Origin: Lentinula raphanica
Lineage: Eukaryota > Basidiomycota > Agaricomycetes > Agaricales > Omphalotaceae
Length of the DNA: 64,000 nucleotides
Direction of reading: 5' to 3'
Assembly (NCBI GenBank): GCA_027919835.1
Contig: JANVFP010000004.1
Location: 186,001-250,000, forward strand
Part shown: positions 20,730 through 44,994 of the stretch, piece by piece
How positions within the stretch are numbered: the first letter of the stretch is position 1
Layout of the letters: every line of letters begins with the position of its first letter
The notes under the pieces: model-generated
What the model saw: only the letters and a program-made list of their open reading frames with translations
Told to the model about the DNA's origin: nothing
The model's database searches: none
Program-made: the position numbers and the translations under genes

Positions 20730-22045
20730 CACACATTCTTGAATCACTAGGCGGACTCCGGAGACAAATCAGTAACCGTGCCAAGTTTGTCAACATATGG
20801 ATACATATGGGGCTTCAATGCCCGTTCGATTCGCAAGTCGACTCGCCTTTCGGTATTTGCCACTGAACCTCATGTGTTGTTTGCGCTCTTTATTTTTTTA
20901 TCGAACGAATGGCATTATGGGACACCACTGATTCCACCTAATCTCACCTGATCATGCCTGATCTCACTCGCTCTCGACCCCAAAATGCGATAGGACCACC
21001 CCTTGTATTGAATATCTCACTATCAAGGCTGTACTTTGAGCAGGTGGTGCTTGCTTGCTTCTGAGCAGACCATATCGTTCTCTTTGGGCTTGGGACGAGG
21101 GATTTCCTATGATTGGATGGATAACAGTGGATAACAAGGTTGGTGCAATATGGAGGGATACATCAGAGTATCAATCTATTCATTGATCATTGAAACAGCC
21201 TCAGCTCAGTATAGATGCAACGCACTGAAGCCTGGATGGAATTGAATGTTGACATGATTCCACGTTTGCACTGCGCCTTGCACTGTACTTATACCCATGG
21301 GTACTGGATGTTTTCTTCCCAGATTTTCTGACTTCTTTTGCATCTGCCCCCATCAGTGATCTCATTCAAGTTCGTGTCTTTGCTGGTCAAAGGTGAGCTA
21401 CCAGTTCACTGTCACCATAGACTACACTGACCACCCTTGTTGGACATGTCCTGACAGACCTTTTGCATTTTTTTCTCGACTTTCTCCACACTACCCCAAA
21501 AGAAAGCTTGACGATTCGTATCGGTGAGCTTCATTCTTTTGTCGCTCTTGTGGGTTTGTATCTGACGTCTCACTTTTGTTTTTGTGCCTCGCTGGTAGAT
21601 TCCGTCAGACTTCAATTACCGCACCATACTTCTACTTTCAAGTTCGTCCCTTTGCTGGTCAAAGGCAAGTTACACTTTGGCCATCAGTGTCCTTATACTA
21701 TAGACTAATCTTTCTACATGCGTTGTGTGTGTTACAGACTTCAAGTTGTTTGCTACGAATCACTTTACGCCGACTCGAAAGAAAGCTTGACGATTCTTAT
21801 CGGTAAGCTTATTCTCTTGTCCCTCTGGTGTATCGAGTCCGACTCTGACGTAAATTTTCTCTCCGCAGATTTCGTCAAAAATTCGCCACACGACACTTTA
21901 CACGCTTCACGAATTTTTAACTTCATTGGTGAGGCTTACCTTCCTCGACGAGCATCCCACCTTCTCTGACACGCCTTCCCACATCTCATCATTCAAAAAG
22001 CTCGTTCAAGCTACGCCACTTTGATCGACAACTTCAAACTTCGAC
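20730..22045 (+). promoter_or_regulatory. G2 upstream region and intron-rich leader
   Basis: The sequence is shared, block by block, with the regions upstream of G3 and G4. Distal blocks include CGTTCGATTCGCAAG and GAATATCTCACTATCAAGGC. The proximal part looks like a spliced 5' leader with short non-coding exons bounded by GTGAGCT-type donors and CAG acceptors. A module of TTTGCTGGTCAAAG, an intron, then GAAAGCTTGACGATTC and another intron occurs twice (near 21378-21525 and 21650-21805). The second TTTGCTGGTCAAAG is followed by GCAAGT, a possible GC-AG intron. Splicing of this leader is inferred only. Confidence 0.55.
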
Positions 22046-23854: not shown

Positions 23855-24237
23855 AAGTTTGCATATGGGGCATACTTCAATGGGCCGTTCGATTCGCAAG
23901 TCAAATCACCTTTTGGTATTTGCCATTGAACCTCCTGTGTTTTTTGCGCTCTTTGGTTTTTGTCAGACGAAAAGAAGACAAATGGGATTAGGACACCAAA
24001 GGACACCATTAATCCCATCTGATCCACCAGCTCTCGACCCCCAAACATACTAGGACCGCCCTTGTACTGAATATCTCACTATCAAGGCTGTACATTGAGC
24101 AGGTGGTACTCATTCCGGACCATGTCATTCTGTTTGGGCTTAGGGCTGCTTAGGGTGAGGGATTTCCAAGATTGGATGTATAACGAGGTTCACGGTGCGA
24201 CGTGGAAGATGATTTGAGTATCAATCTATTATTAATC
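23855..24237 (+). promoter_or_regulatory. Distal half of the G3 upstream region, displaced
   Basis: It matches the distal upstream blocks of G2 (from about 20800) and G4 (from about 52900), including GGGCCGTTCGATTCGCAAGT and GAATATCTCACTATCAAGG. The match stops at TTAATC (24232-24237) and resumes at 41797, on the far side of the 17.6-kb element. It is therefore the original G3 upstream DNA, now about 21 kb from the G3 start. Confidence 0.8.
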
Positions 24238-24400
24238 TATGAAGACAGAATTCGGACAAAATGTTTACTTCAGAACAAGCATTCATAATTACTCTTTCTC
24301 AGTGAGGAATACTTGACTTTCAATTTGTTGACTCATTTTTTACTTTGACCAATGTATTTTTGAAATCCTTGATCTGATTCTTGACATTGATGGAAATGCT

Positions 24401-24625
24401 ATTGTCATTTGGGTCTTGGACATGTTGCAATTGGGCACAATCATGTTGTTATTTGGGACCCACTTTTGCATTTGGGCCAGACCATGTTGTTATTTGGGAA
24501 TACCTTGTAGCATTTGGACCAGATCACATTATTATTTGGGAATAACTTGTAGCATTTGGGCCAGATACTATTGGTATTTGAGAATACCTTGATTCATTTG
24601 GGCTAGATTATATTGTCATCTGAAA
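24401..24625. repeat. Left subterminal repeats of the 17.6-kb transposon
   Basis: There are about five units of ~42 bp, each made of two ~21-bp halves that begin ATTTGGG (for example ATTTGGGCCAGA and ATTTGGGAATACC). The inverted counterpart (CCCAAAT units of 21 bp) lies at the right end. Paired subterminal repeats of this kind usually bind the transposase. Confidence 0.75.
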
Positions 24626-24886
24626 ATTGCTAAGGGATTCAAGCATTTTCAGTAAATATTGAATAAGTTTTCATAATTATGTAGTATTATTATCAGATCT
24701 TGTATCAACTATATAAACTGAATCCTTCAAAATTTGACTTTCTGTCTTTCCCTTCCCTTCCTTCGGGATCTTTCCTCAACTTATAGCTGTCAGCATCTAC
24801 TTGTTCTATTACTGAATATTCCACATCCTGATTTTTGTAAGTTTTATTATATGAGTTATGAAACTATACTAATATAATCCAAGACC

Positions 24887-27800
24887 ATGGATTACAATCA
24901 GTTAATGCAGCAGTCACTGCAATCATTTTTTTCCAACAATCCTCAGCTTCTGGCTCAGTTTTTGCAACAAAGCCAGCAGTTACCCAGCTCTGGTTCCTTG
25001 AATCCTGCAGCCTCTAGTTCAATTCCTACTCCATCTCAGCCTCTACCTACTTCTCATTCTTCTTCTATCCCTCAGCCTCCTTTTGTTGAGGCTTCATCTC
25101 AATCTGCATCCTTGCCCCCCTCTCAGGTTCCACCTTTATCTGGGCCACCACCTGCCTCACACTTCCTATCTCCCTCTCAACCCCTACCTCCAACTCAGGT
25201 TGCATCCTCATTTCAAGTGCCATCTTTGCCTGTATCTCAGCCTGCAGTTCAGCCTTTATCTCAGCTGCCAACTTTATCAAATTCTTTGGTTTCCTCATCA
25301 TTGCCTACAATGACTACCCAAACTTCCCAAACTTCCCAAATTGCAAGACCAATTTCTACTTACCTATCACCACTTGATATGCTTGCTTCAGTGGGTGCAG
25401 GTAGTTCCAGTGCAGGCAGTTCCAGTGGAGGTCATCCACATCCTTTGTTGGAGCCTGTGTCATCACCATTCCAAAGCCTTTCCATGATCCAAAGGGCAAA
25501 TCAAGATAGAAGAGGCCATGCAGCTCAATCTCTGTCTACTGGAGCTGGAAATAGCAAGCAGAAGAAAAAGAAGAGAGGTCCAGGAAAGAAACCACCTAGA
25601 TTGAGTTCAAGCTGGAGTGATCTCAGCATTGAGGATGCTTTGATGACTGCTGATGATGGAGCAGAAATTATCAACTTGATTGTCCACGTCTATCCACCAA
25701 AGCTTTGTGCAGATGAATGCAATGTAAGTGCATTCTATTTTATATAATCAGAACCTCATTAATTTTGATATTTTCATTATAGATGCTCAATCTTCCACTG
25801 GAGCTTTACCATTACTTACAAAATGGTGATGCTTTTCAAACCTTGCTTGAATCACTTGGGCTGGTTTATAGGTTTGATAAGCTGCCACTTGATACAAAGG
25901 TGGTAGATTTGCTGGAAGTTTTGCATTCTTCTATGTGTCAACATGGCTGGGTGTTTCCAGAGGCTTCATCTGAATCCTCCTCATTTTTCAAGAGACATGA
26001 AAGGCTGGCTATTCAACTTCTGAGGTTTACTGGCAAAGGAAATATCAACAACAATGCTAAAACTCCTAGACTTGGCCCAGGAAAAATCCACTCAGAGAAT
26101 ATGACCTTGGCCCAGCTTGTTTCAAACACATCAGACTATGGCATTGCCAAGTATGCTGTAACAAGTGACAAGAGATTTTTTCTACACACTGGTAAGTCTT
26201 CATTTGAATCACCAAGTTACTTTTTTAATAAAATCAATCTAGTCATCAGATCTTCCAATGTTTCATTGAATATCAACTTATATGAGAAGGGACTTGGAAC
26301 TGAAAACACCACAAGACTTCATCATTGTCTGTCCAAAAGAATATATGGGATATTCAGGTCTGATACAGATGCTCTTGTTGATGAGGGCTACAAGGCCTTG
26401 AATGAGGAGGAGATGGAAATGGGATGTCAAGATCATGTTGCTGAAACAAGTATTAGGGTATGGTTAAATTTTTCAATAATAGCAATTATAAAGCTTACTA
26501 ATAATTTTTAACTTTGATTTAGGAAGCACCAGTTGTAGCACAGCACTTAGTACCTTTGGTGTTTCCTTCCATGGGTTCTCCATCAAGTTGTAAGTTATTA
26601 AGTTATTATTCAAGATTTTCAACTTTGATTCTCATTTATTCTTGTACATTCAGCAAACAACAACACAAATTCATTGATTGATGTAGCAAATTCAGAAGCT
26701 GAATCCCAAGCTGTAAGTTATGAATTGATACTAAGTTTTATATACTCAACAACTTATTAGGCAATTGATGTGCTTTGGGAACTCAACTATGACAATTCTG
26801 CACAAATCTCCAGGGATCTATATTTCAGCAATAGGTCAAGAATATTCCATGTTGTGGACCAATGCTATAGAAGAGTGCTTGGCTTTGAAAGTACTGGTAT
26901 CATGGTCAAAGGACAAGATACACAACACTTGCTTCAAGAATTCTGCCAAATGGTTCAGCATGCTCTAGAAAATGAGGACTTTACAGGCATTCTTTCTGAA
27001 AACAGACATTTCAAACTGTAAGATTGCCCAACTTTGTCAAAATTATTTATCTGCTAACTATTTTAATTTTTCTAGTATAAATATTGATCAGAATGGCATT
27101 GAAACCTATGTTACATCTGGGCCAGGTCTTGAAAAAGAGGTTATGAATCTCTTTTATCAAACCTATGTGAAGAATTCAGATTTTCTGGTCACTCTTATTG
27201 ATGACTATACTACCTTGGCAACCATCCCAGTCTCCTCCTCTTCTGATATCCCCCAAGCCAAACTGGACCAACTGGCATTCTTTGGAGCAGCAGTTGGAAT
27301 ATCCCTTGTCCATGGCACTTATCCAGCAAATATCAATCCACTCCTATTGATCTATCTTCTCAACTCATGCAAACTCAACTCTATATCAAAGCTACTTGTA
27401 CTGGAACTCTTTCCAGAACTTTATACTACTCTTACTCGCTGGCTGGCACTGGATCCCTCTGATGACACTGGTCTTTCTTCCTTTCAATCTCATTTTGCTA
27501 CTTTTCACAACAGTGTGGTATGCAATTTTTGAATTTTTATGTTATTTTTTGATTAATTTTAAAAACATTTCAGGTTTCAACTTTGCGTGGTCGTTCCAAA
27601 AAGCTACATCATTCCCTAGCATGGAAGATGCTTTATGCTGCTGTTGTTGGTCCAACAACAACTGATCATCCATACTTCAAGTCCTTCATCAAAGGACTCC
27701 TTTTGCCTTGTAAAGTCATCAACCTTGATTTATCTGAGGTTAGTTGTTATTCTTTTTTAAAAAATATACTAATTAAAATTATTACCCAATATTTTTATAG

Positions 27801-28481
27801 CTTACTCAGAATTTCAATGGTGGTTCTACAGAGTTTGTGGTATCACTCTTGGAAACTCATATAACTGGAGATTATGGCAAACTCAGACTGGAGTATGTTG
27901 ACAGAACAGAGTGGTCCACAAAACAAACTCTTGAGGAAGCCTATGCCTCAGTTTGTTCAGAATGGTCTGCTGGAGGTTTTGAAGCAATATTCCAAGAGTT
28001 TTTGGAAGGGAAAGAATTGCCTTGTCCAGCTCTGATGCAGGATCTGCAAGGGAGATTTGACTCTGTAGTAGCTCTTGAAGCTGCATCAGACAAGGCTTTT
28101 AGAATGAGAATGTTTTGTTGGGCTGTCAGTGGTGCACCTCAAATTTTTCTTGATGGTCAAGAACTTGAAGTAAGTTAAATTATTTCTAATTTTTTTACTA
28201 CCTTATTTATTATTTTATAGATCTGCCTTGTTGATGATGATGACAACAGGTATTTCAGAATGAGAGATGGCTTTGATGATGAAAGATCAAGGCTGTTGGC
28301 TCATGGTACCATTTGCTTCAAAACCTGTATTCGCAGCATGCAAATCCCTGCCTCTTATTTATTGAAGCTGTTGCAAGCCTCTTATGATGGTATTTCAGAG
28401 CCAAAGAATGTCAAGGATGCAGTATTTCACTGGTTGCTATATGAAATCTTAAATGGGATTGGTAGCTACAATATTATATAA
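24887..28481 (+). CDS. HECT-type E3 ubiquitin ligase, transposon-borne
   Basis: Nine exons join without frame conflict to about 1043 residues: 24887-25723, 25783-26457, 26523-26589, 26654-26712, 26761-27017, 27076-27517, 27574-27738, 27801-28169 and 28221-28481. A TATA-like CTATATAAA lies near 24709. The first ~240 residues are low-complexity Q/S/P-rich, then a KQKKKKRGPGKK basic patch. The C-terminal ~270 residues fit a HECT domain: an N-lobe-like block (AFFGAAVGISLVHG), then the C-lobe ending AHGTICFKTCIRSMQIP. The Cys of TICF sits where the HECT catalytic Cys is expected. It would transfer ubiquitin to unknown targets. The gene lies tail to tail, 89 bp from the dioxygenase gene. The frame is open throughout, suggesting recent selection. 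The N-lobe match is weaker than the C-lobe match. Confidence 0.72.
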
Positions 28482-28570
28482 ATTTACATATTTTTCATAT
28501 TTTCCAAAAACTTTTAATATATTTACAAAATACTTCTTGTAAAGCAAAACAAACAGTTTATGAAGCTATA

Positions 28571-30806
28571 CTAAGCACCATATTCAGGAAACACATCCTT
28601 TTTTTCCCAAGTTTCTGTATCACAAATAACATTCATATCAAGCTGCTTGGCTAATTTGATTGTGGAAACTCCCAACTCTGATGTTTGAATCATGGAGGCT
28701 TGGTTGAACCAAACCATAGATCCTCTACCCTCTGCCTCATGCCAAGCATTATCTTCTTCATGTGAACTGCAGGGACAAAAATAAAGTGGCCTGGAGTTCT
28801 CATGAGTTGGCTGTTCACCAGTGGGTGTGGTAACAATGGGAAGATCTGAAAACTATTCAGAATACAATGAGTTTTTGAAATACAATAAGACTTACTGGCA
28901 AGATCAACATTGAAATGTAGAAAAAGAGAAGAGGGATATATAATGAAAATACCAGGTGGAAGTTCAACAGCAAATCCTGCCTCCCAAAGTACTAACCAAC
29001 ACTTTTCCTTGTGATTGAAATGCCCTATAACTTGGTGAGTTAGTTATTAAGAAAATTCATGATAATCAGTTACCATAGACATAAATCATACAAACACCAA
29101 AAGCCACATTTTTCCAGTCTACATGTGGCTTACAAAAGACACGCTTGACCCCTTTTCTGACAGAGTTCAGACAAAAATTGAAGAATAGGCCAAATTTGGC
29201 ATGAATGCCATATTCTCTGGCCATATAGTCAATTGATTCCTGATATCTTTCAGCAATAACAGGGAATTGGGTTTGCAATATTTTGCATCCATAAGTTCTG
29301 GATTAAAAAAGTAAAGCTACCTCTTTGAAATAATTCAGAACTATTAATTGAATACTCACGTCAGTCTATGAAGAGTTGTTCCAGGTGCAAAGAATTTTTC
29401 AATAGCCTCAGAATTATCTCTTTGAAATACAGTTTCCTTTGATATCTGATCAAGATGATAAAAACTCCAAAGTTCAAGAAAGGTTTTTATTAAATTTTAT
29501 TACTTACTTCTTTATTATTTCTGTCATGACCAGCAATGGAAAACCAGTGATCTCCACGAGAGTGTGTAAGCATATCCCCTTCAGTAAAGGGCTTCTTGAT
29601 TGCCCTGACAAAGTCAATGGCAGTTGAATTGGCTTTTGGTAGCAGGTCCAAAATCATATCTGAAGTAAGTTGAGACTGAAAAAAAAACATATAGTTTGAA
29701 GAATCTATGATTGCAGTTGCTCTATGACTGATATTGATAGGTTTAGCAAATGAACTTTTGGACTGACTTGACAGGCTTACGGAGTATAGGGAATCAGATC
29801 AATTCCTTCAAACATCTCTCTTGCTAGATCAGAGCCTGGCTTGCTAATGGCTTCCATGATCTGATTGCGTATATCAACAGAAGCCTTCAATCCCATCCAA
29901 GCTGGGCGGGAAATACGCCCATCCTTGAAGATTTTGAAATTTTGACCTGATAGCATTATCTGTGCTGTCTCAGAGTATTTGTGGTAAAGAGACCACTGGC
30001 GCTGTTGGCGCTTTCGCTCCTGTTGTCTCAGTTTGCCTTTCAAGGCTTCAGGCAAGGAAGGACGAAATTCCAAGGTATGGGGATTGAATAATGCACGAGC
30101 AGCTCTAAGTAAATATAAGCAAATAGTTTGGTTGATCAAGTGGCAATGCTTACACCAGCTGTTCAAAACCCACTTGAGGAATTTTTGGCAACAAAGGTTG
30201 CGATGATGCTTTTGCTTTGCTTGATCGCTTTGATTTATGCTTTCTGTGTGTGGGTTTGGTTGCAGAAGTAGCACTCAGTGGGATGAGATTAGGTTGGCCT
30301 GACTGGGATCAGGAAGTTTGTGAGATATTCCTTTGCCTTTGACTAGAAAAGGAAGAAGTCCCTCCAATAGAAGAAGAAGGCCCTGCAGTAGTGAAAGATA
30401 ACGCAGGGAGAATGGCAGTGGAATGGAGTGTGGCTTCTTCTGACTCGCTAGATGATTCCTCAGTAATGGAGGATGAAGCCAGAGGGGTAGCTTGTTTGTC
30501 AGCATCAACTTGATTGAGGCGTATACTAAAGTCGTAAGCTTCCAACTGCTCCAGATCCACCTCAACCTCTGAGTTTGTAGCAGGTGTGGCTGGAGCTTGT
30601 TCCAAGAGTTCATCAAGCTGCTGAAGTTCAGGGTCAATATTCTGCAGGTCTTCCAACTTTGAGAAGTTGCGCAGAATTCCCAGGGACTCCAGTTGCAGCC
30701 ACCTTGGTTGCCAGAAGTCCACCCCATGCACAGCACTTGGCTTTGCATTTTCAACCTGTGGAAACCTGTCAAAGCCATCAATGGGATAACTCAGCCCAGC
30801 CTGCAT
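28571..30806 (-). pseudogene. TET/JBP-like 2OG-Fe(II) dioxygenase gene, possibly broken
   Basis: Minus-strand exons: 30806-30154, 30104-29781, 29675-29508, 29436-29360, then further exons to the stop at 28571. The N-terminal third is acidic and Ser-rich, followed by a Lys/Ser-rich stretch. The C-terminal part follows a double-stranded beta-helix dioxygenase: CKPHVDWKN (HxD, two iron ligands, near 29120), WLVLWEAGFAVELPPG (near 28990), SSLFLHFN (distal His ligand, near 28930) and GRGSMVWFNQASM (Arg for 2-oxoglutarate, near 28710). Order and spacing resemble fungal TET/JBP proteins, which oxidise 5-methylcytosine. Two defects: an in-frame TGA at 30309-30311, and a one-base phase conflict between exons 2 and 3. 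Either real breaks or missed introns could explain them. Confidence 0.6.
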
Positions 30807-33800
30807 TGAATCTTATACCTAGTCTTGAGAACCTGAAACGCGGTTCTCATAGAGCGGCGCAAGGTAACCATTGTACAATATAAAGGTGTTAGCTAGCTAG
30901 AGTGAGACCTGGATAAGATGAGGGGAAGGAAAAGAGGTGGGGGCCGCAATTCGAAAGATAAGGACTTGCAAAGTGCCTTATGGTAGAACATGAGGAGAAC
31001 ATGAGGCAAATCCATACTACTGGGTCTTTGTTTCCTCATCTGGATTATGTTGATTTCTGATCTCAAGGTTTATAAGTGTAGAGGGTGTAGATGTATATGA
31101 TGAACTCTTGAAGGAACTCCAGAGTGAGGGTAAGCCAAGACAAGTGCATTGGAGTGATTGGAGAATTTTGTTGAAGCAGGCTCTGATGAAATGTAGTAAA
31201 GGGGCAAATGCTTCCATGGTTCTTCTCATCTTGAATGGAAGGTGTGAGCTCAGAAGAGACAGAGGTGGCAAGAAGAAGAGTAGATTGATGTGTATAATAA
31301 CACAAGGTGATACACCAAAAGAAAGAAAGACAGAAAGGTCAAATGATGTGAGATGATAAGCTAATGAAATAATCAATATAGAATGCTGTTAATGGGATGT
31401 TTATACAATGTTGGATGAAGCAATTGGGAGGGATGACAACAGATAGCAGCCTTCAATATGAGATCATCCAGTCAAAGTCCTTGGTCTGGACATCGAGATT
31501 GGAGAGGTAATTGCCCTTTGAGATTTGGATTTGTAGAGACAATGAATGTGAAAGGATGTGAGAAGTGATATAATCTAAGGCTGCTCTGGCAGCTTCACTG
31601 AGTTCCAGAGATGGGTCGGAGCTGAGCCCATCCAACTTAAGGATAATGAAGACCTCCATGCTGCTGAATTCCAGATAAGATGCATAAGATAGTAAGACGC
31701 AATGAATACACAAGCAGAGATGCACCCACCTTGAGGATTTTGTCTTCCTGGCTACAGTCCAAAAAGCTCTGTCAGGGACCGTAACGACGACGGGCGTTAA
31801 ACTTCTGAGCTCAGTAGCTTACATAATATTTCAATACCTAATTTGTAGGTAGGATATAAAAGGTAAGTAATATAATTGAATGTTGGCTGTCAGTCGAGTC
31901 AATGGGAGTAAGGAGAAACTCGAGTTGACTCGACGAGAGCCGGGACTTCGAGTCCTTAGTGAACAGCAATTAAGATGACTGGAATCAACGTGGGAAGCAT
32001 CAATCCAGTCAGGGAAGTAAAGGATGGAGACAAGCAGGGAAACACTGCCCTATGAAGTCCATTGCTCGTGGTAAGGAAGATGAAAGGAGTGCGCAAGCAG
32101 AAGGAAACAATCTCCCAGAATAGGAAGGAAACTGCAAAAAGGTCAGTAAGTATGGCGGTTTACCTATACTGGGTAAGGGATATCCAGGCAACGAGAGCAG
32201 GGACCTTGAGGGAAGTTATCCTTCGAGGCATCCTCATTTGTGAGAGGCAAGGATTCTCGGTTCCACAATCTTTGGGACCATGTTGTAGTTGAGGAGGTTT
32301 GAATAGAGCACAAACGATAAGAGGGACGATAGAGAACTGGGTCCGAAAGAATTGGAGCGGCGGCGAGTCATTCGTGGAGACGATGACTCGCCGGAAGTGG
32401 TTAGCTTCGAAGAAAGTGTAAAAAACTCATAAACTGGTGGGACCGCCGCGTTTGGTGTCTTCTAGAGTGTGTCAATGAGTGTCGAGACCCCGACGTCCGC
32501 ATACGGAACTTGACTGGTTGAACTGAATCGAGAGATCAAATGAAGTCGCTCTTTCGGCAAGCGATAGGAATAAAGGAAACCACCAAAAGGCGGAATGGTT
32601 ACTTCAGAACAACTAGGCCTTATTCATCTGCTGACGCGTTAGCGGAACCGCGGTGCGAATTGAGGATGAGGGATGGAGGGAGTCCAGTCTTCTAGAAAGT
32701 CAGGGATGGGTGGAAGGAAAAGAGACCGAGGGTTTGGAAGGAAGGGCGAGCCGTGTTAGTGGAGGAAGACCCGGGATGTTGGAAGGAAAGAAAGGGACTG
32801 AAGTTTCTGGAATGACAAGATGGGCGGCCAAGGAGGGAAGTTTCAATGAAGTTGAAGGGAAAGGACCCGAGGCATCAGCAGACTACGTCTACTGGCACCT
32901 CCTAACAGCTTAGTTAGTACTGGTAATCCGTTCTGTTGAACGAATTACGCACTCGAGGTATCGTGGATGGCAGACCATTTCCTCGCGGTCTCCTTCCCTT
33001 AAGCGTTCCCTAGATTGCTATCCATCCCTAGATCCTGGTGGCTATTCCTGTCGCCGTCGTGGAGGTCGAAGAGCAAAGGAAGGTGTTGAAAGCAGAAATA
33101 TGAAGGCGGAGATCGTGGAGGTTGAGAGATGAGAGGCGAAAATGCTTTTAGCGCCGAATTAACGCCAGTTCGGCGATGGTTCGGCCATCGGCTGCGACGC
33201 TGAAAACCCGTTAGGAATCCAAGAAAAATGAGGAGAAGAGTGAGGAGGGTGAGAGAGGGGTGAGAGAGATGAGGGAGAGACAGGAGGGAGAGGGAGGGCC
33301 AAGAGAGAAAAGGAGATGAGCGAGAGGGAGGATGGAGGATTTGGTAGCCTTTGCTGTGGTTCATCCTCGTCGCTGTCGCCAGTCTTTGTCGCTGCTGTCG
33401 TCTCATCATTTCGTCAGCGTGGACGCGTCGTTGTCATTATGCCTGTTGATGAGGTGAGTTACGGTGGAAAGGTGGTGAGACTTGCCGTTGTCACTTGGTT
33501 GCGGTCTTTGCCTTTGCCTTGGGAGGGTGAGGAGGAGGGGGAGAGAGAAGGCAGGGAAGAAGGGGAAGAAAGGGGGGAGAGAGAAACAATTTGAGGTATC
33601 AGGATGTTGTTGAGGGTCTCAGCAACATCCTGAAACCTCAGATCACCTCGTCTCGCCGATCCGGTTGTTGTCTTGCGGTCCTCGTAGCCCTTGGTATGTC
33701 ACGCATATTCGTCGTTTCACCGTTTTGTTTCGCCGCTTCTGAGGGGGTGTCCTTCATTGGAAAATCAGACCGTCGTCAGTAAGCCGTGCAGGCTCGACGT

Positions 33801-34823
33801 CAAAGGCATCAATGCCGTCTTCTAATCCGCTCATCTGTAATGTCAAATTTGAAGCCGGAATCAACCGCTGCGAGGAAGACGTTGGCTCTTTCGTAATGAA
33901 ATACAATGCATGTGAGGCAATGCCGGTGACTATCAAGTGGGTGAGCGCCAGCACAAGATGAGGGTCTTCTTGAGAGTAGCGAATCGAGTGACGAAAAAGG
34001 CGGAATGAAGAGGATCATTGTGGCAAGTTGAGCGTAGGGTCCGCGTCTGCGTCTCTGTTTTTTCTGAATTTCAGGAGAGCAGAGGATGAAGAAGGGGTGG
34101 GTGGAATGAAGGAGTTCACAGCTGCTTGAATGACAAAGAAGCGGGCGAGACAGATGGTGGTCACAAGAGCTGAGTATTTGGTGAACAGCATCCCCTCGAG
34201 GAGGAGGAGAACGAATGGCTCCAGGACCTTGGCGTCCGGAACCTGACGGCGAGCTTGTGCGTCAAGAACCCAGATGAGGATTTGTAACCTAGACCTGCAT
34301 GTGGTTATATGAGTTCAGCTCCACAAGAAAACTTCCAGATACACGACGCGACGTACCACCAGCAGATCAACTGGGCTGGAGATAGCATGCTTGATGAACC
34401 GAGTCGGCGCTTCCTTGTCCCCTCCTCGTCTGGTGGTCTCCGCCGTTGTTTAGTGATCTTCTTGGTCCCGAGTTAGTGCTCCTCTCCTGGTTATGGTAAT
34501 CGCCGTCCTCACCTCATGGGCATGGCCTTGTACGCCAGCTGAGGCTGTAACTTTTATGCATAACAAGTGGGCAACTGCCTGAGGCCTGTTTTGCATTACC
34601 AAGGGGCAGTTGCCTACCCCTCAATAAGCCTCACTACATCTCACTATAGCAGTGGATGTAATGCATAACAACTTGGGCAACATGTTATGCATAACATATA
34701 GGCAAAAATATTTTTCAATATTTTTGAAAAAAAGAATTAATTGTATCTTTTGAAATATCCATTTTTGGAAAAAACTGACACCCCCTATAGGGGGTCTTTT
34801 TTTAAGGTCTATCAATATATCCT

Positions 34824-34913
34824 CAACCCTAACCCCTAACCCAACCCCTAACCATCCTAACCCCTAACCAAACCCCTAACCCTAACCTAACCCAACCCTA
34901 ACCCCCTAACCCT
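34824..34913. repeat. Interstitial telomere-like (CCCTAA)n tract, degenerate
   Basis: About 15 units alternate CCCTAA, CCCCTAA and CCAACCCTAA forms over 90 bp. The standard fungal telomere repeat is TTAGGG. Here it is embedded in a short inverted-repeat element with unrelated DNA on both sides. Confidence 0.75.
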
Positions 34914-34929
34914 TATTGGCCTATGTTTG

Positions 34930-35002
34930 GCACTGAATCAGACCCCTCCCTAATGTTGGGGTTAGCATAGCTAACCCCAACGGGAGGAGCCTGATTCAGT
35001 GC
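34930..35002. repeat. Near-perfect hairpin beside the telomere-like tract
   Basis: GCACTGAATCAG pairs with CTGATTCAGTGC, and GTTGGGGTTAGC pairs with GCTAACCCCAAC around a 4-base ATAG loop. One side has a 4-base TAAT bulge. The centre contains GGGGTTAG, itself telomere-like. Confidence 0.75.
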
Positions 35003-35127
35003 TTAATCCCAGTTTAAATGTTCATTTATTGGCTGAGTGGGCAACTGCCCCTTAGTAATGCAAAACAGGGCTCAGGCAGTTGCCCACTCATTATGCATAA
35101 AACCTACAGCTACAGGTGTGTACGCCT

Positions 35128-35240
35128 CTACGTCGATGCTCGTCGTCTTTGCCTTCCTCGTTGTCTTTGCCTTCCTCGTTGTCTTTGCCTTCCTCGTCAT
35201 CTTTGCCTTCCTCGTCATCTTCATCCTCATCCTCCTCTGA
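35128..35240. repeat. 18-bp tandem repeat, acidic on the minus strand
   Basis: TTTGCCTTCCTCGTYRTC units are repeated about five times. Read on the minus strand this gives repeats of GKDDEE, a possible coding exon remnant, but no complete gene could be assembled. Confidence 0.6.
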
Positions 35241-35999
35241 ATCCTCATTTTCTTCGGCGTTGTTAAGGTTGCTTCCCAGGGCTTCTTGAAGAGGTAGAGG
35301 GAGAGAGTTGAAGCCTTAGGGATAAAGAAGAGAGACGAAGTGGGAATAAGCACGGGATCAAAGGTCCTCGTGATCAGTGGGATCACGGAAAACGCGCCCG
35401 CGTGAAAACACGTGAAAGTTACGTTGATTGTTGATTTCGTTCAACCATCATCTCCGCGGTTCGTGAACCGCGTTGGCGCGTCGGCGTTGAGCAAGCGTTG
35501 GCAAGGCAAAACACGGATATAGAAGGTCAGCGGCACCATGGATGGACTAGATCCGCTGCCTAAGCCGTCTTTTTTTCTGTAGGAAAACTCCTGAGCATCG
35601 CCAACAGCACCATGCACGAAGACCGCCGCAGGACCTGGCCTGACTGGTCTCCGGCCGCCCCCTCCTCTTGCACATCACCTGCAAAGCATACTGGGAGCGG
35701 CACCGTGGATGGACAAAATCCGCATTTTAACCCGCTTTGGCTAGAGGTGGTGATGGTGAGGAATGAAGGGGGGGAGGAAAGGTGAGTGATCCCGCGCTTG
35801 TCTTATAAGCATTCACGCCCATACACCAGCAAACAGATCTCTGAAATCTGTGCCTGGAAGGGCAATAACCACCGCGTCTTTAAGCTCATCCAAAGTAAGC
35901 CCTCAACCCTCTGCTCCTCCTGACTGCTTTCTGACCACACTGCTGCTACTTCGCCGCCAATCCATCTCCGCACCCATCTCCACCACCATCTCCGCACCC

Positions 36000-36275
36000 A
36001 CCTTTGCCCTCATCTTTGTCATCTTCTTCTTCGCCGTCGCCTTCTCCTTCTTCGCCGTCGTTGTCTTCTTCTTCGCCGCCGTCGTCTTCTTTTTCTTCGC
36101 CGCCGCCGTCGTCTTCTTCTTCGCCGCCGCCGCCGTCTTCTTCTTCTTCGCCGCCGTTGTTGTCTTCTTCTCTTCGCCGTCGTCTTCTTGTCGTCTTCTT
36201 GTCGTCTTCTTCTTTGTCTTCCTGGTCTTCCTCATCTTCCTCTTCTGTGCCTTCCTCCTCCATGTCACCCCACCT
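36000..36275. repeat. Pyrimidine-rich trinucleotide-type low-complexity region
   Basis: TTCTTCTTCGCCGCCGT-type words repeat over ~270 bp. Open frames exist in several phases because stop codons are rare in such sequence. The minus strand reads as Glu/Asp/Gly-rich. I do not call a gene here. Confidence 0.6.
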
Positions 36276-36584
36276 CTTTACCTTCCTTGTCTTCATCCTT
36301 TGCGCTGCGGCTGCGGTCATCACCCTTCTTATTCTCCACCACCTCGTTGTCTCATCGGCCCTTCCTCTTCCTCTACCTCCTCTGCTTCCTCCACCCCTGC
36401 TTTTGTCACCCCTGTGCTTTGTCACCTCCTTATGCCTTCACTGCTTGTGCTTTGCACATCCCTAGGTCTTTTGGTGTGTTTGTTGGCCTGCTTGACTCTT
36501 TCAACAAGGTTACTGACTCACTGCCTTCTTTAGTTCTTTTAACCTCATCAAAAACACAAATGGGAAGAGAACAAGGAGGCAAAC

Positions 36585-36800
36585 ACAAGCAGGAAGAGGA
36601 GGTGAACGCGAAAGGGAAGAGGAGACAAACGCGAGTGGGAAGAGGAAGAGGAGGCGAACGCGAGGGAAGAGGAGGCAAACACGAGGGAAGAGGAGGCGAA
36701 CGCGAGGGAAGAGGAAGAGGAGGTGAACGCGAGGGAAGAGGAGGAGGAGGTGAACGCGAGCGGGAAGAGGATGCAAACGGGAAGAGGAGGAGGAGGCAAA
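36585..36800. repeat. Purine-rich minisatellite, GGGAAGAGGAGGYRAACGCGA units
   Basis: Units of ~21 bp, with some 12-bp and 15-bp variants, are repeated about nine times. They give Arg/Gly/Glu-rich frames on the plus strand. No start, domain or splice context supports a protein. Confidence 0.6.
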
Positions 36801-37169
36801 CGCGAGGAGGACGTGTACCGGAAGAGGAGGGTCTCAGGGCACAAGCAAGGTTAGGGGCAACATTAGCATTGATTATAAGCTACCTGCTCTACTTACTCTG
36901 CCTACTGCATGTACTACTTAGAGTAGACTGTCGACTACCAAACTATTAAAGAAATCCTACTGCAACTCTATAATACTGCAAACCAAAATCAAATCAAATG
37001 CTGTGAAATACGAGTCATTTGTTTCTCAATCTGGTCCTGAGTAAGCTTACTTGCTTCCTTCTCATCAAAATTTTGGGATCTACGATTGGGTACTCGCGAA
37101 CCTTGTGGCTGAGTAAGAAAAGTAGTATCCAGCCAAAGGTAAGAAATCCTACACCAAGTCCTATGAGGA

Positions 37170-38809
37170 CTAGGCAAAGAAGCCGTGGCTAGATTGATAG
37201 ACTCTTGTTAAGCTAAGGTAATGAAAGAAGTCGGGGAAGCTCAACTTACAGTGGTCAATTGGAATCTGGAAAGGATCCCAAATCTTGGTACACACATTCA
37301 CGATCACCCAAGCGTAGACCCTAGTCTTTCTAGCAAAAGTGCGATGACACCAGTTGATGTCATTGAGAATGGAAGCAAAAGTCTCCTGTTGTCCTGTGGA
37401 CCAGGTAAAGCTTTGCCTCTCCAGTACCTGTCTTCCAGAGCTTCCATCATAACCTAGCCCCTGAAGTAGAACCCATGCTTCTTTCCAATTGCGATATATT
37501 TCGGTCAAAGAAGTCTGCTGTCCCTTTTGTTGATGGGAAAAGCCTCCCCTCGGCCTTGCAATACCAAGTTGAAAGCAGGCATCATCAACATCAAGGACAT
37601 GGGATAAACGTGGAACTCCAAAAGGAGACAAAGTAGGAAGCTGCGCTGAAGCCAAAACCACTGCAGAGGATAAAGGAGGTTGGACTACTGAGCTGATCAA
37701 GGAAGAGGGATCAAGTAAAGACCAGGGATCAATCACAGAAGGCGAGGACGCCTGGTCAGGCTGACCAGTGGTATTCAAGCCTGGATTCGCATGTAAGCTT
37801 CCTGTAGCAGACTCCGACTCTAAAAAATGGAGTGTGGCTGCAGGAGAATAGGTGTGATTGGTGACGTCCAGAATCGGAACCGAGGCTAAAGAGCACGAGA
37901 AGCCTATAGCATCCAAAGTGCAAGGGCGTTCCACTGAGGAGGAGTCTTCCCTGAAAGCACTAACGAGGATAACCACAAAAGAACTTTCGTAGGAATGCTC
38001 ATGGGACAGACGAAAGTCTACTTCTTCTAAGGTCATGCCAGGGAGGTTTGGGTAAGAAGATCCAGAGATAGCGCCAACCCCTATAGCTTCCTGGATGGTG
38101 CAGATGCGCCTGATACTCCGCAAGCTGTTTACTACACCATAGAGACTGGGAGGCTCAGCAGCTGTGTACAACACTGTACTAGCATCCGCAAGGGCAAGGC
38201 GAACTTCAGCAGGTAAGCCGATTGACAGCAAGAGCAAGACCGCAGCAGATACAGTCAGCTTCCTAACCAGCATATCCGGCTCATGAATAATACTTTGAGT
38301 CAATAGAGGGATGTGAAACAAGGGAGAACAAAAAGAAGGCAAGCTATGCTGATTTTGAGCAAGGGCCAAATATAGAGTAACGCATTCTAAGATATCATCA
38401 GAAACGAAAAGTTTGAGATAAAACACAAAATCTTACCAGCAAGTTGAAGAAGAGTAGATCGAACAGAAGATTCATTAAATCTATTAGAACTATCTGAAGC
38501 CATTTCGGCCAAAACTGCCTCGAGAAGCCTTTGTATCCCTGCATCACCCAAAGAGGCCTGAATGGTTTCAGTGAGGTTCGGGGCCATCGTCGTAGCCTGG
38601 CTTGGGAGATTCAAAGCTGAAGTAGCAGAATTGAAGGTCGCGAAGGTAGAGTCGACAGCGTTCGTCATGGTGGAATTCCAGAGATCAGCTATAAGTGGGT
38701 TTGAATTCACTGAGTTCGCAATAGCTGCAGAGGAGATGACTTCAGCCAGTTGGCTTTTGAAGCTGCTATCTTGATTAGACTGCGAGAAGTCGACCTGTTG
38801 CTGTTCCAT
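37170..38809 (-). CDS. Serine-rich protein of unknown function, transposon-borne
   Basis: Two exons, 38809-38437 and 38386-37170, joined across a 50-bp GT-AG intron, give 529 residues. The ATG at 38809 opens with MEQQQVDFSQSNQ, similar in style to the Q-rich N-terminus of the HECT gene. The first exon is Ser/Ala/Asn-rich and helical. Near residue 160 there is a hydrophobic run (VSAAVLLLLSIGL). The C-terminal ~120 residues are Trp- and aromatic-rich (YRNWKEAWVLLQGLGYDG), which suggests a folded domain I do not recognise. The long unbroken frame argues for a real gene. It lies between the unassigned stretch and the transposase, so it may be an accessory factor of the transposon; its role is unknown. 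Confidence 0.6.
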
Positions 38810-39128
38810 ACTTTAACTATTACTAGAAAAAATACCAAGATAAAAAGAAAGGATGGATGAGTCGTCACAGAAGCAACTCAGAAGGGGGAGGAAGAAAGAA
38901 AAAAAAATTGAGGCGTGTTTACACTTGAACCAACTTTAATACCTACCTACCTAATTTTTTCCCACATTCCATCAGCACAAGGCAAATGTTGGTGATATTA
39001 CACAGTTCTATTAATCAAGATCTATTAATCAAAGATATTAATAATGAAAAGGATGATTCTTCCGAAGGATATATAATAAAGACTGCAGGTTACATATTAT
39101 CTCCCATTTCAGGACTGAAATAACTGCT

Positions 39129-41162
39129 TTGACCACTGCATTCAGTATGAAACTACCTCTAATATCTTGGTCTTTTGCAAACTATTGCATTATTTTGCTA
39201 TGGTCATTGGCAACGTCTTGTCTCTGTTGGGCAAGTAATCCTGCTACACCAAACTCCATCTTCAGTGGCTCCGAAACTCTTTTAAATGAATTTCGAATTC
39301 ACTATCACCACTTTGGACTTATTCTCAATCAAATATCTCAAACTGAAACAGATCCTTTTCACCTGGAACTTCTGAACCAAGACTTACAACAATTCTACAG
39401 CATAGTACAACAGGTATTTGTTGATAAATTCTACAATATAGTATAGCCTTGACTAAGAAAACCAATCAGAATCCCAGTGCATTTTCTGATCCCTCGGAAT
39501 GGCAAACCTTACAGATAAATCTGCAGCATATGATTCTGGATGTACAAACCATCTACAATCATTCAGTTGAGCAGAGCCATAGAGGTCGACCACAGGTTAT
39601 GCAGTGGGAGCATAATGGTTCAGCTGGACGCCCTCACATTACAATTGACCCTGTCTTTTTAAGATGGGCCTATACTCATCGCACCACTAGTGGTATTGCT
39701 GACTTCTTGGGCGTAAGCACAAGAACAGTTAGAAGAGCTCTTCTTTACCATGGCATTGCTTCACCTGGATCAAATCCCTTTCCCAATACCAGAAACTTGG
39801 AATCATCTACCAGCACTGCCCCAGTGGATCCAGTTCTCCATCCAGATCTAGAAATTCCTGACAACCTTCCCCCTGATATTTATAACATGGCAAACTCCAT
39901 TCAATCTTCTTCCTCCTCGAGTTATTCATCCAATATGTCTGACCAAGATCTGGATGGCATGATACAGCACCTTCGCCTACACTATCCTAGGGCAGGTATC
40001 CGCATCCTGCGAGGTATGCTTCAAAGACTTGGTCATGTCTTGCCATATGAGCGCATAAGGCTATCATTGCTGAGGATAGATCCTGTCCATAGAGTCTTTG
40101 AGCCTATTAGGATTAGGCGTAGACACTACAGTGTGCCTGGACCAAACTCCCTGTGGCATCATGATGGACACCATCGTAAGACTATTATTATACTTCAAAG
40201 AGGTTGAAAAACTAAAATTCATATAACATTTCAAGGTCTTATCAGATGGGGTATTGTGATTCATGGATTTATAGATGGTTATTCCCGATTGATTACTGCA
40301 CTCCGTGCAAGTAATAATAATCGCCCTCAGACAGTTTTGTCTCTCTTTATATCTGCGGCTGCAAGATATGGAATACCATCCCGAATTCGTGGTGATCATG
40401 GCATAGAAAATGTATGGGTTGCTGCCTTTATGGAGCATGTACGTGGGGCTGGAAGAGGCTCCTATATATGGGGCAGGTAAGTGATTATTTTATTTTATTT
40501 TATTTTATTTTATTGTTGTAACATTTTATATTTCTAGATCTGTTCATAATGTCCGAATTGAAAGGCTATGGGTTGATGTATCCAACTACATCAGTCAGGA
40601 TTGGAACAACTTTTTTACCAGATTAGACAGCCACCATCTGGATACAAGCAATCAAAATCATATTTGGCTTTTACAACACCTTTTTCTGGAGGCTATCAAT
40701 AACTCTTTAGCTTTTTGGGCTGAGGGTTGGAATAGTCATAGAATCACCCAGGGCAGGGATAGTAATGGACCTAACAGAAGTCCAGAAGATATGTGGGGTT
40801 TTGACATGCTTGTGCATGGAATGCGGGGTGACTCTTTGGATCAACATAGGATGACTGATGAAGAACTGGAGGTCTTTGGAGTCGATTGGGATGGTTTACA
40901 AGACAACCTTCTTTTAGACTCATTGCGCAGCAACTATGCTCATGAAGAAGGCACCAGTACTTGGCTTGGAAGGCATGGCCCTCCTGAAAATCTTAATGAA
41001 GTACAGGTTGATCCACCCTCAGGACCATTGACCATGGAGGAAATTCAAGGCCTAGATATTTTGACTGGTCCAACTTCTAATGTTTTTGGAGAAGAGAATA
41101 TTGTGCAACTTTGGTGTACAGCTATTATTTACTGCCATAACCTATACCCAGAAATATTTTGA
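39129..41162 (+). CDS. Integrase-core DDE transposase (IS3EU-like)
   Basis: Exons about 39129-39413, from ~39447 to 40175, 40236-40476 and 40538-41162; the last two joins are phase-correct. A TATA-like ATATATAATAAAG lies near 39069. Two helix-turn-helix-type segments come first (GIADFLGVSTRTVRRAL and GIRILRGMLQRLGHVLPYER, like the IS3 HTH). The integrase catalytic core follows: SLWHHDGHH (first Asp), RGDHGIENV (second Asp) and RIERLWVDV (Glu). The pattern SLWHxDGxH...LIRW...GFIDGYSRLI is one I associate with eukaryotic integrase-type transposases of fungi and animals. It would cut and rejoin the element ends. The first intron (39414 to about 39446) does not keep frame with the obvious GT-AG borders, so the N-terminus is uncertain or damaged. 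Confidence 0.78.
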
Positions 41163-41337
41163 AGTAGATGTTGCCTGTTTTCTTTTTATGATTTGGTATA
41201 TTTTTTGTCAGTTGCAACAAATTATGAATTACTAGTTACAATTGCTACAACACAACTACCATCAGCTGTAACTAAGACAAACCCTCTGCATATGCACCAG
41301 AAGTGATAAATAATCTGATACAAATTACTTGATAGCT

Positions 41338-41536
41338 GGCCCAAATGGTTTACCAGATGTCCCAAATGGTTTACCAGAGGTCCCAAATGGTTTACCAGAG
41401 GTCCCAAATGATTTACTAGATGTCCCAAATGATTTACTAGATGTCCCAAATAGTTTACTAGGTGTCCCAAATGATTTACTAGGTGTCCCAAATGATTTAC
41501 TAGTTGTCCCAAATGATTTGCTAGCTGGCCCAAACT
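41338..41536. repeat. Right subterminal 21-bp repeats of the 17.6-kb transposon
   Basis: Nine tandem units of TCCCAAATGATTTACTAGATG (variants at the last six bases) are bordered by GGCCCAAA at each side. In reverse the units begin ATTTGGGA, the same word and similar spacing as the left subterminal repeats. This is not a CRISPR array: there are no unique spacers. Confidence 0.85.
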
Positions 41537-41796
41537 ACAAATATAATTAAGCAAGATGTAAAATATAGGTTCTTGAGCCTCAATCTTGCATTTACCAGGT
41601 TGCTACTTGAAACTGTCAAATAAAAATCTAAAAGCCACTTAAGTCTGCCTCAACTTTGATTAAAGCAAGAGTCAAAAGCCTAACTAGTAGATTCAGTCAA
41701 AGGTGATAAGTAAAACTTGTGTTTTTAAGCCGAAGTCAAACACTGAAGTGAGAAAATACAGTCAAAGTCAAATAAAGTCCGAAAAATAACTTCATA

Positions 41797-41928
41797 TTAA
41801 TCATTGAAACAGCCTCAGCTGAGAGCTCAGTATAGTAGATGCGACGGCTTGAAGCTTGGATCAATGTTAACATGGTTCCAACTTCCACGTTTGCACACTG
41901 AGTCAATGCGCTGTACTTACTACTTATA
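41797..41928 (+). promoter_or_regulatory. G3 upstream region, middle fragment
   Basis: ATTGAAACAGCCTCAGCTGA and following bases match the G2 and G4 upstream regions (near 21190 and 53320). The fragment is cut on the left by the 17.6-kb transposon and on the right by the fold-back element. Confidence 0.8.
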
Positions 41929-44900
41929 CAGCTGATACTGTAAAACTTTTGTAAAAAGTACCGATAAGTTATCGGGTACCTATTGCAAATAGTTGTGATA
42001 ACCCGGAGGGGGTCCCGGAAATGGCCCCGGGGGGTGGTCATGCCTGTCACCACCTGTCACATATGGCTTATATTTACTGTTTTGGGTAATTAATAATCAT
42101 CCAGATATTAAATAAGCAGTACATTTTCAAAAAAACTCGAAAATTCATAAAAATCCATAAAAAACCTAAAATGGCCTGATTAGGTCAGATCAGGATATGT
42201 AAGCAAATGACCTCATATGATCAGAAATGATGTAGGGCCAATGTAGGTACTAAAAATAGCCCAAAAAATCACGAAAAATGCAAAAAATATTTAGGGATGG
42301 TATAGAGCCTATTGCAGGCCCAGGCACATCAAAATTACCAAAAAAGGAAAAAATTGATCATGATCTCATCTTGTAGCAAAAAATCTGAAAAAAATCCTAA
42401 AAATAGTCCAAAAATTCAGGGGTGCCTTGTTGGCCCTGAAAATGCAAAATAAAAAAAAATATGCGACAAGTGTAAAAATTTTCATCACTCCAAATCATTC
42501 CAAATCCACTATACAGTCAGTATATATGATGTATATGCTATATTTAGCATCCTAGTATCTTTATTGGGCTAAAAATAGAACTTGATCTCATCTGATAGCA
42601 AAAAATCTAAAAAAAAATCATAAAAAATACTCAAAAAATTCAGGGGTGCCTCATTGGCCCTGAAAATGCAAAATAAAAAAAATTACACGACACAATTGAA
42701 AAACAACATCACTCCAAATCATACCAAATCCACTACACAGTCAGTATATATCATGTATATGCCATTTATAGCACCCCTAGTACCCTCAATCACTTATATC
42801 ACTCAAGAATCATACCAAACTGAATAATTTGGGGAGTAAATATATTATACATAATATTTTTAGTACACCTAGTACCCTTGATAACTTGGAACAATTTATA
42901 TTACTCAATATGTTCAGTACACTTAGCACATATCACACCTAACACACTAAAACTCATAACAGTACTGATATGTATTATACTTAATACAGTTGACAATAAA
43001 AAATACTGAAAACAGTGTTATCAGTCACTATACTTAACACACTTAACAGTCAAAAAGTCGGAACAATTGTTATACTATAACACACTCATAACAACGAGTT
43101 TTGGGTGCTTATGGGTGCTTATTTGGTGTTTTTGAGTCGAAATTCATTAATAGCACACTCAATAGTTTTTGTGTGGGCTCTATATTGTGTAAAGATGTTG
43201 TTTATATCATACTACACTTGATACAATTCGGAGAACTTAAGATTACAGCTTTTGGGAGTGGCTATATTGTGATCTTTTGTGAGATAACAGTGTTTTATGT
43301 GAATGTCAATGCATACACCCATGTTGTGAAGTCAAACTGCTACTGGGTCATGAGAAGAGTCATCCTACAACCTATTTTATGCTAATTCTATGTGATACAG
43401 CCAAGAGATCTGTAATGGGGGTCATTGAATATAACATCTATTGTTACATGTAAGTAAGTGTAGACATCTATAGTGTGCATGAAACATGTACATGTATATC
43501 ACAGAGTCCAATAGTCATAGTGAGTATCTGAACCATGTCCAGACATTTCCAGTAGACTGTAAGAGTGATTCCCTCATGAACCACCATCAGTATACTTGCA
43601 TTACATGGACATATGCATTGACATTTACATGAAACACTGTTATATTTCAAAAGATCACAATATAGCTAGCCCCACAGGATGAATTTTCGAGTTCTCTGAA
43701 TTGTATCTAGAAGAATATGATATAAACAACATCCTCACACAATATAGAGCCCACACAAAAACTATTGAGTGTGCTATTAATGAATTTCGACTCAAAAACA
43801 CCAAATAAGCACCCATAAGCACCCAAAACTCGTTGTTATGAGTGTGTTATAGTATAACAATTGTTCCAACTTTTTGACTGTTAAGTGTGTTAAGTATAGT
43901 GACTGATAACACTGTTTTCAGTATTTTTATTGTCAACTGTATTAAGTATAATACATATCAGTACTGTTATGAGTTTTAGTGTGTTAGGTGTGATATGTGC
44001 TAAGTGTACTGAACATATTGAGTAATATAAATTGTTCCAAGTTATCAAGGGTACTAGGTGTACTAAAAATATTATGTATAATATATTTACTCCCCAAATT
44101 ATTCAGTTTGGTATGATTCTTGAGTGATATAAGTGATTGAGGGTACTAGGGGTGCTATAAATGGCATATACATGATATATACTGACTGTGTAGTGGATTT
44201 GGTATGATTTGGAGTGATGTTGTTTTTCAATTGTGTCGTGTAATTTTTTTATTTTGCATTTTCAGGGCCAATGAGGTACCCCTGAATTTTTTGAGTATTT
44301 TTTATGATTTTTTTAGATTTTTTGCTATCAGATGAGATCAAGTTCTATTTTTAGCCCAATAAAGATACTAGGATGCTAAATATAGCATATACATCATATA
44401 TACTGACTGTATAGTGGATTTGGAATGATTTGGAGTGATGAAAATTTTTACACTTGTTGCGTATTTTTTTTTATTTTGCATTTTCAGGGCCAACAAGGCA
44501 CCCCTGAATTTTTGGACTATTTTTAGGATTTTTTTTCAGATTTTTTGCTACAAGATGAGATCATGATCAATTTTTTCCTTTTTTGGTAATTTTGATGTGC
44601 CTGGGCCTGCAATAGGCTCTATACCATCCCTAAATATTTTTTGCATTTTTAGTGATTTTTTGGGCTATTTTTAGTACCTACATTGGCCCTACATCATTTT
44701 TGATCATATGAGGTCATTTGCTTACATATCCTGATCTGACCTAATCAGGCCATTTTAGGTTTTTTATGGATTTTTATGAATTTTCGAGTTTTTTTGAAAA
44801 TGTACTGCTTATTTAATATCTGGATGATTATTAATTATCCAAAACAGTAAATATAAGCCATATGTGACAGGTGGTGACAGGCATGACCACCCCCGGGGCC

Positions 44901-44994
44901 ATTTCCGGGACCCCCTCCGGGTTATCACAACTATTTGCAATAGGTACCCAATAACTTATCAGTATTTTTTACAAAAGCTTTACTGTATCCTGTG
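41929..44994. mobile_element. 3.07-kb fold-back element, ~1.35-kb inverted arms
   Basis: It starts CAGCTGATACTGTAAAAC and ends GCTTTACTGTATCCTGTG. The arms (about 41935-43280 and 43650-44990) are inverse copies with few differences, around a ~370-bp loop. A 7-bp duplication ACTTATA flanks it (41922-41928 and 44995-45001), one base short of a perfect 8 bp. The paralogous G2 and G4 leaders read straight through this site (CTGTACTTATA). The arms contain repeated ACTGACTGTRTAGTGGATTTG motifs in both directions and no coding frame. It needs a transposase from elsewhere. A target duplication of 7-8 bp and CAG...CTG-type ends would fit hAT, but this is tentative. Confidence 0.85.

Follow-up and report, generated by a model that had tools for sequence, protein, structure and literature searches.

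The question raised by this locus of Lentinula raphanica, a relative of shiitake, is whether a transposase, a HECT-like protein and a TET/JBP-like oxygenase encoded close together belong to a single mobile unit, and whether the latter two act jointly to protect it, as a preliminary description had proposed. TET-bearing fungal transposons are thought to escape methylation. Our analysis covered a window of 64,000 bp (C4:186001-250000) and the whole genome (49 Mb, 75 contigs); positions below refer to the window unless a contig is named. With a probability of roughly two in three, the segment is an IS3EU-type element with a HECT-like core gene beside its transposase and a further gene, ORF4, and with a TET/JBP-like accessory gene, likely captured, whose predicted activity is the oxidation of methylcytosine.

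Analysis of the borders revealed a DNA transposon of 17,559 bp (~17.6 kb) at 24238-41796. Its outermost letters, TATGAAG at 24238 and CTTCATA at 41796, are of the TAT..ATA type and are enclosed by a perfect target-site duplication, TTAATC, read directly from the sequence (24232-24237 and 41797-41802). The left terminal inverted repeat (24238-24257, plus strand; TATGAAG......TTCGGAC), variants of which bound six other elements, and the right one (41777-41796, minus strand; placed by the end-motif search) are perfect over 7 bp, with 18 of 30 positions matching over 30 bp. Subterminal repeats of the ATTTGGGCCAGA type with a period of about 42 bp (24423-24632, plus strand; repeat families D7 and D8) follow the left end, and a set with a 21-bp period (41321-41551, minus strand; repeat family D1), inverted relative to the left set, precedes the right end. 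The word ATTTGG is inverted between the ends, occurring eight times in the first 600 bp and nine times in the last 600 bp read in reverse; the 16.4 kb between the subterminal zones hold 11 occurrences, either orientation counted. When the 400-bp flanks were joined, they aligned through the junction, with the element absent, at two paralogous places of the window outside the element (20804-21291, plus strand, 71% to the joined flanks; 53134-53441, plus strand, 70%). Genome-wide, with up to two mismatches, the end motif gave 373 matches against 334 for a reversed control and is therefore barely commoner than the control; several of its matches flank transposase copies. Because the motif alone is barely enriched, the case for a bounded element rests on the duplications and the gene content. 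The borders, the perfect duplication, the subterminal inverted repeats and the two empty sites of the preliminary description were all found, and 24238-41796 is confirmed, beyond chance, as a real and well-bounded mobile DNA unit.

Other repeated sequences occur in and around the element. Repeats of about 0.9-1.4 kb with 95-97% identity are found at 14750-17163 and 41929-44994, that is, right of the element and about 25 kb to the left, in both orientations. A DDE_Tnp_4 transposase frame (E 4.5e-22) at 58772-59344 on the minus strand is a separate transposon remnant. Within the element, a nested repeat of 583 bp with 82-bp inverted ends (34536-35118) has other genome copies, 34 of them near full length (88-99%) among the matches listed. 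We considered whether a single large nested transposon makes up the non-coding middle and rejected this, as in the listed matches only this 583-bp repeat has other copies.

The transposase gene (39147-41162, plus strand) has four exons and encodes 612 amino acids. Its product matched Pfam rva_4 (E 2.1e-65) and rve (E 4.7e-07), in line with the IS3-like integrase type described before, and carries a candidate D321-D378-E413 triad, assigned by eye, with 34 residues between the last two. The IS3EU superfamily, as outlined in the available part of PMC10045372, is characterised by TA..TA termini, a 6-bp target-site duplication and an IS3-like DDE integrase-type transposase. TAT..ATA termini and perfect 6-bp duplications were found in all seven bounded elements of the genome, and the transposase combines the rva_4 and rve matches with a D-D-E triad. 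By termini, duplication length and transposase, the element thus appears to fit the published superfamily.

A catalytic cysteine in a TC motif near the C terminus is a hallmark of HECT E3 ligases. The HECT-like gene (24887-28481, plus strand) was modelled as an open spliced frame of 10 exons and 1026 amino acids, with the candidate catalytic residue Cys976 in the context FKTC. The C-terminal TC motif was present in all 11 covering rows of the 13 aligned, the focal cysteine being Cys976, and two homologues are named HECT domain-containing in UniRef. Pfam analysis of the focal protein and its homologues gave no HECT match, a genome scan with the Pfam HECT profile found other HECT loci with no element copy among them, and a profile search of PDB sequences returned no HECT chain, only weak low-complexity matches. 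The predicted fold of the homologue P0003 (mean pLDDT 59), however, has HECT ligases as its closest solved structures (Foldseek rows 1-48) and spans both the N- and the C-lobe, so the earlier HECT assignment is supported by the model at fold level, though it has no Pfam match. In the six of 21 pairs of bounded elements with usable dS, dN/dS was 0.22-0.26 for HECT and 0.15-0.21 for the transposase. The near-identical C30-C31 pair gave 0.43 for HECT and 0.60 for the transposase, on very few changes, and the other 14 pairs, including all focal ones, were saturated for dS (focal HECT pairs pN/pS 0.37-0.45). The likeness to the cellular fungal HECT ligases (RSP5, TOM1, UFD4, HUL4, HUL4A, HUL5; PMC5913265, as far as its available part describes them) consists in a HECT fold over both lobes and a C-terminal TC motif; the element's protein differs in having no Pfam HECT match and in occurring, among the candidates scored, near transposase only. 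The main text of that survey (Marin 2018) contains no word starting with "transpos".

The TET/JBP-like gene (28571-30871, minus strand) has eight exons and 641 codons including the final stop and an in-frame TGA at codon 170 (30311-30309), and encodes the predicted motif H490-x-D492 and H543. The L. raphanica protein C8R42DRAFT_716909 is 100% identical to the gene over 27% of the query, and the homologue P0014 from another L. raphanica strain has the frame without the interruption. No Tet_JBP match was obtained by Pfam for the focal protein and 34 homologues, and among PDB sequences a profile search brought up weak low-complexity matches but no TET chain. At two loci of the genome, on C51 and C19, a match to the focal protein coincides with one to PF12851, which there scores below its curated cut-off. 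As with the HECT-like protein, the fold was more telling than the profiles: the closest solved structures to the predicted fold of the homologue P0015 are CcTet, NgTET1, CMD1 and TET2 (Foldseek rows 1-26), with a TET-type double-stranded beta-helix. The earlier TET/JBP assignment is therefore supported at the level of the modelled fold. Of the profile matches that the preliminary description had looked to, those of the transposase were obtained (rve, with rva_4), whereas the HECT and Tet_JBP profiles matched neither protein. H-x-D occurs in all 31 covering rows and the second histidine in all 34, the triad being assigned by sequence position. The focal protein reads H-V-D, not the H-x-E of the PE type, and has asparagine and cysteine where the AG type has glycine at H+5 and aspartic acid at H+11 (331 and 337 in CcTET), as read in the focal protein and P0015 and counted without gaps. 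The predicted active site is thus outside the published AG and PE types. In the genome as a whole, the focal protein found at least 76 TET-like loci and Pfam Tet_JBP gave 28 matches, largely in different places.

Nine other loci were fetched for their ends: six were bounded, one was fetched in part, and two, on C40 and C19, were without ends. The six further elements (C4:256666-280459, C1:2013868-2037633, C30:544240-571492, C31:613489-645044, C1:1020018-1034668 and C1:1038501-1054829) have ends that are variants of the focal ones, and the 6-bp duplications are perfect in all six (GAATGT, GATAGG, GAGAGC, GTTATC, CAGAAT and CTCATC). C40 and C19 have a TET-like gene close to both HECT and transposase; the motif search gave no ends at either, and both were left out of the bounded count. 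A weak motif match with three mismatches at C4:275476, inside the C4 sibling, was considered as an end and dropped. Among the six copies with both ends found, none ended elsewhere.

Comparison of the seven bounded elements revealed the same gene order in each: HECT, a variable slot, ORF4 and transposase. ORF4, a fourth gene missing from the preliminary description, lies at 37051-38809 on the minus strand (~549 amino acids as modelled, 3' end uncertain); it has no Pfam match, and homologues occupy the same place in all seven elements, as the HECT-like gene also does. The TET-like gene fills the variable slot in the focal copy, and the siblings have other genes there, namely one large protein family in four and a different family in two; one representative of each family was scanned and gave no Pfam match. 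When 58 TET-family proteins were searched against the six siblings no match was obtained, which leaves TET in one of seven bounded elements. Of further bounded copies, six were thus obtained with variants of the ends and with HECT, ORF4 and transposase, and none with TET. Siblings also hold fragments of putative captured host genes: Nup192 (Pfam E 8.6e-61; two pieces, 97-98% to C4:927504-930401), acetyl-CoA carboxylase (99% to C57:34119-35821) and Tra1 (Pfam E 1.2e-38). These fragments sit in the elements C1:2013868-2037633 (at C1:2017500-2020000), C30, C31 and C4:256666-280459. A small protein is encoded after the transposase in the C30, C31 and C1:2013868-2037633 elements; that of C30 resembles T5orf172/MUG113 weakly, with E values of 0.005 and 0.013 that miss the cut-offs.

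Genome searches identified at least 45 transposase, 34 HECT, 28 ORF4 and 76 TET-like clusters, counted from 89 of 93 transposase, 70 of 124 HECT, 28 of 30 ORF4 and 77 of 82 TET rows, the others being, by eye, further exons of the same loci. All 34 HECT clusters among those listed lay within 25 kb of a transposase (1.4 expected), on scoring the best 72 of 146 transposase and the best 45 of 163 HECT candidates, by which a HECT copy far from a transposase could be missed. The same distance held for 25 of the 28 listed ORF4 clusters (1.2 expected) and for 9 of the 76 listed TET-like loci (3.2 expected). The binomial value for TET-transposase proximity is 0.004, or 0.013 without the focal locus, with the clustering of transposons ignored; most TET-like loci of the genome do not adjoin an IS3EU transposase. 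Eleven of the 45 listed transposase clusters are without a nearby HECT match. As every listed HECT cluster lies near a transposase (34 of 34) and few TET-like loci do (9 of 76), HECT belongs to the core of the family together with transposase and ORF4, and TET is an accessory. The earlier claim that genes for an IS3-like transposase, a HECT-like protein and a TET/JBP-like protein form a single mobile unit is upheld, Pfam, sibling borders and predicted folds being in agreement.

TET-like and transposase homologues were also found together, on contigs taken as shared from their identical length and with locus tags close to each other, in four assemblies from three species: Paramarasmius palmivorus (VNI00_008790/008798), Marasmius tenuissimus (PM082_023298/023307 and AAF712_013512/013510) and Marasmius sp. 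AFHP31 (PQX77_018222/018216). These pairs were chosen among 58 TET-family and 90 transposase proteins listed, the transposases down to E 1e-110, and on this sequence evidence the pairing of the predicted genes recurs in related fungi. The pairing itself is not new. TET-bearing IS3EU elements are published for seven rust species and the truffle Tuber indicum (Kojima, December 2025, PMC12730594), so that the statement that the transposase is of the integrase type instead of KDZ is right for the focal element but does not make it the first such case. As described in the available part of that paper, to which the following comparisons are limited, the published elements share with ours an IS3EU transposase, 6-bp duplications, TA..TA-type ends and a TET/JBP gene beside the transposase. 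They differ in that TET is placed between transposase and an alpha-kinase gene, the partner in the L. raphanica element, from a mushroom, being HECT-like; in the rust ends TAYGG..CCRTA with terminal inverted repeats of more than 30 bp, against a repeat perfect over 7 bp and otherwise imperfect; and in the TET types, the L. raphanica protein having H-x-D without the Gly/Asp of the AG type and without the H-x-E of the PE type. The same part lists no TET-bearing IS3EU-type element in Agaricomycotina, and the words "HECT" and "ubiquitin" are absent from the paper's main text. The KDZ transposons (Kyakuja/Dileera/Zisupton) with TET/JBP are alike in having a transposon-linked TET, and CcTet from Coprinopsis cinerea is the closest solved structure; the L. 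raphanica transposase, however, matches rva_4/rve and no KDZ family, and its duplication is 6 bp against the 7-8 bp given for KDZ in the available part of PMC12730594. Added here are HECT as a core gene, a mushroom host and a TET active site predicted to lie outside the AG and PE types, and, within the literature searched, the combination of a HECT core with a TET accessory is new for a known transposon superfamily.

Deamination of methylated CpG gives CpG loss with both TpG and CpA raised. Unexpectedly, the focal HECT gene contains five CpG against 134.5 expected, none in its introns (514 bp), and uses AGA or AGG for 33 of its 37 arginine codons; TpG (1.33) and CpA (1.40) are both raised. Its CpG o/e is 0.04, compared with 0.92-1.04 in the siblings; the transposase gene has 0.31 against 0.83-1.03, and the whole element 0.46, where the six siblings without TET have 0.94-1.01. 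The shortage is uneven along the element (TET gene 0.24, ORF4 0.51, non-coding middle 0.73). CpG o/e drops sharply at the left border, being 0.94 in the 500 bp ending at 24000, with 0.66 for the whole left flank; low values also mark the repeat just to the right of the element (0.37 and 0.10 for the two 500-bp windows that follow 42000). At C40 and C19, where a TET-like gene is nearby and ends were not found, no CpG depletion was observed. The composition suggests that the focal lineage was exposed to methylation-linked deamination. The possibility that TET spares its element from CpG loss was considered and given up, the composition having come out opposite. That CpG is scarce in the TET-bearing copy and not in its siblings argues against the simple view of protection from methylation-linked mutation; with a single TET-bearing bounded element, the association is a correlation of one. 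Hypermutation was not detected in Agaricomycotina according to the available part of PMC12730594.

If the preferred reading is right, target strands would be cut with a 6-bp stagger and joined to the TAT..ATA ends by the D-D-E transposase, which would account for the 6-bp duplication seen. The HECT-like protein may use Cys976 to ubiquitinate nuclear proteins that hold the element in check, putative substrates being silencing factors, repair factors or the element's own transposase. Methylated CpG within the element would be the target of the TET-like enzyme, with any protection at best partial in view of the CpG deficit, and the two proteins might cooperate. The joint self-protection system put forward earlier was not supported as a whole, given that TET occurs in one of seven bounded elements, with an in-frame TGA interrupting the gene, and that CpG is scarce in the very copy that bears it; we treat joint protection as a hypothesis. 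Its strongest form, in which a conserved HECT removes silencing proteins and a TET of neither AG nor PE type oxidises the element's own methylcytosines so often that nearly all CpG of the HECT gene mutated away, leaving an intact frame that can hardly be CpG-methylated, is very unlikely, and is rated lower because the deficit is uneven within the element and also affects the flank on its right. A possible, if tentative, account of the HECT-like protein is that it regulates transposition, for example by turnover of transposase or end-joining factors, and is unrelated to silencing; its link to the transposase is no looser than that of ORF4 (34 of 34 against 25 of 28 listed loci), and elements without TET have it as well.

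The TET-like gene might be a decaying passive passenger, picked up like the host-gene fragments of the siblings, with HECT, ORF4 and transposase alone of consequence. The TGA at codon 170, the absence from six bounded siblings and the putative captured Nup192, acetyl-CoA carboxylase and Tra1 fragments speak for this, but the family is conserved across Agaricomycetes (H-x-D 31/31, second histidine 34/34), is found near members of this transposase family on four contigs of Marasmius/Paramarasmius and has the uninterrupted homologue P0014 in another strain, and we consider a mere passenger rather doubtful. Horizontal arrival from a CpG-poor genome, instead of methylation of the lineage in Lentinula, would agree with a CpG o/e of about 0.9-1.0 in other family copies and in the 500 bp just left of the element. 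The HECT-gene deficit is, however, CpG-specific with the raised TpG and CpA of deamination; the transposase matches same-species copies at 65-76% (best-scoring exon matches) and other genera at 54% or less, and HECT matches full-length L. raphanica homologues at 52-58% and other genera at 38-41%. With same-species copies closer than other genera there is no sign of a foreign source, and such an arrival is rated as improbable. That unrelated genes lie between fortuitous ends as a chance assembly artefact could draw on the 7-bp perfect terminal repeat and the barely enriched end motif, but is refuted by the two empty sites and by six further elements that have perfect duplications, similar ends and their core genes in the same order; its probability is close to nil.

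Within the L. raphanica genome, bounded elements that share their core genes can be compared, one with TET and six without, and the CpG poverty of the TET-bearing copy alone among them is the opposite of simple protection. A HECT-fold ligase so strictly tied to a family of DNA transposons would bring ubiquitin signalling into the set of means by which DNA transposons deal with their hosts, and the element, with almost no CpG in its HECT gene, would be well suited to testing how mobile DNA contends with silencing by DNA methylation.
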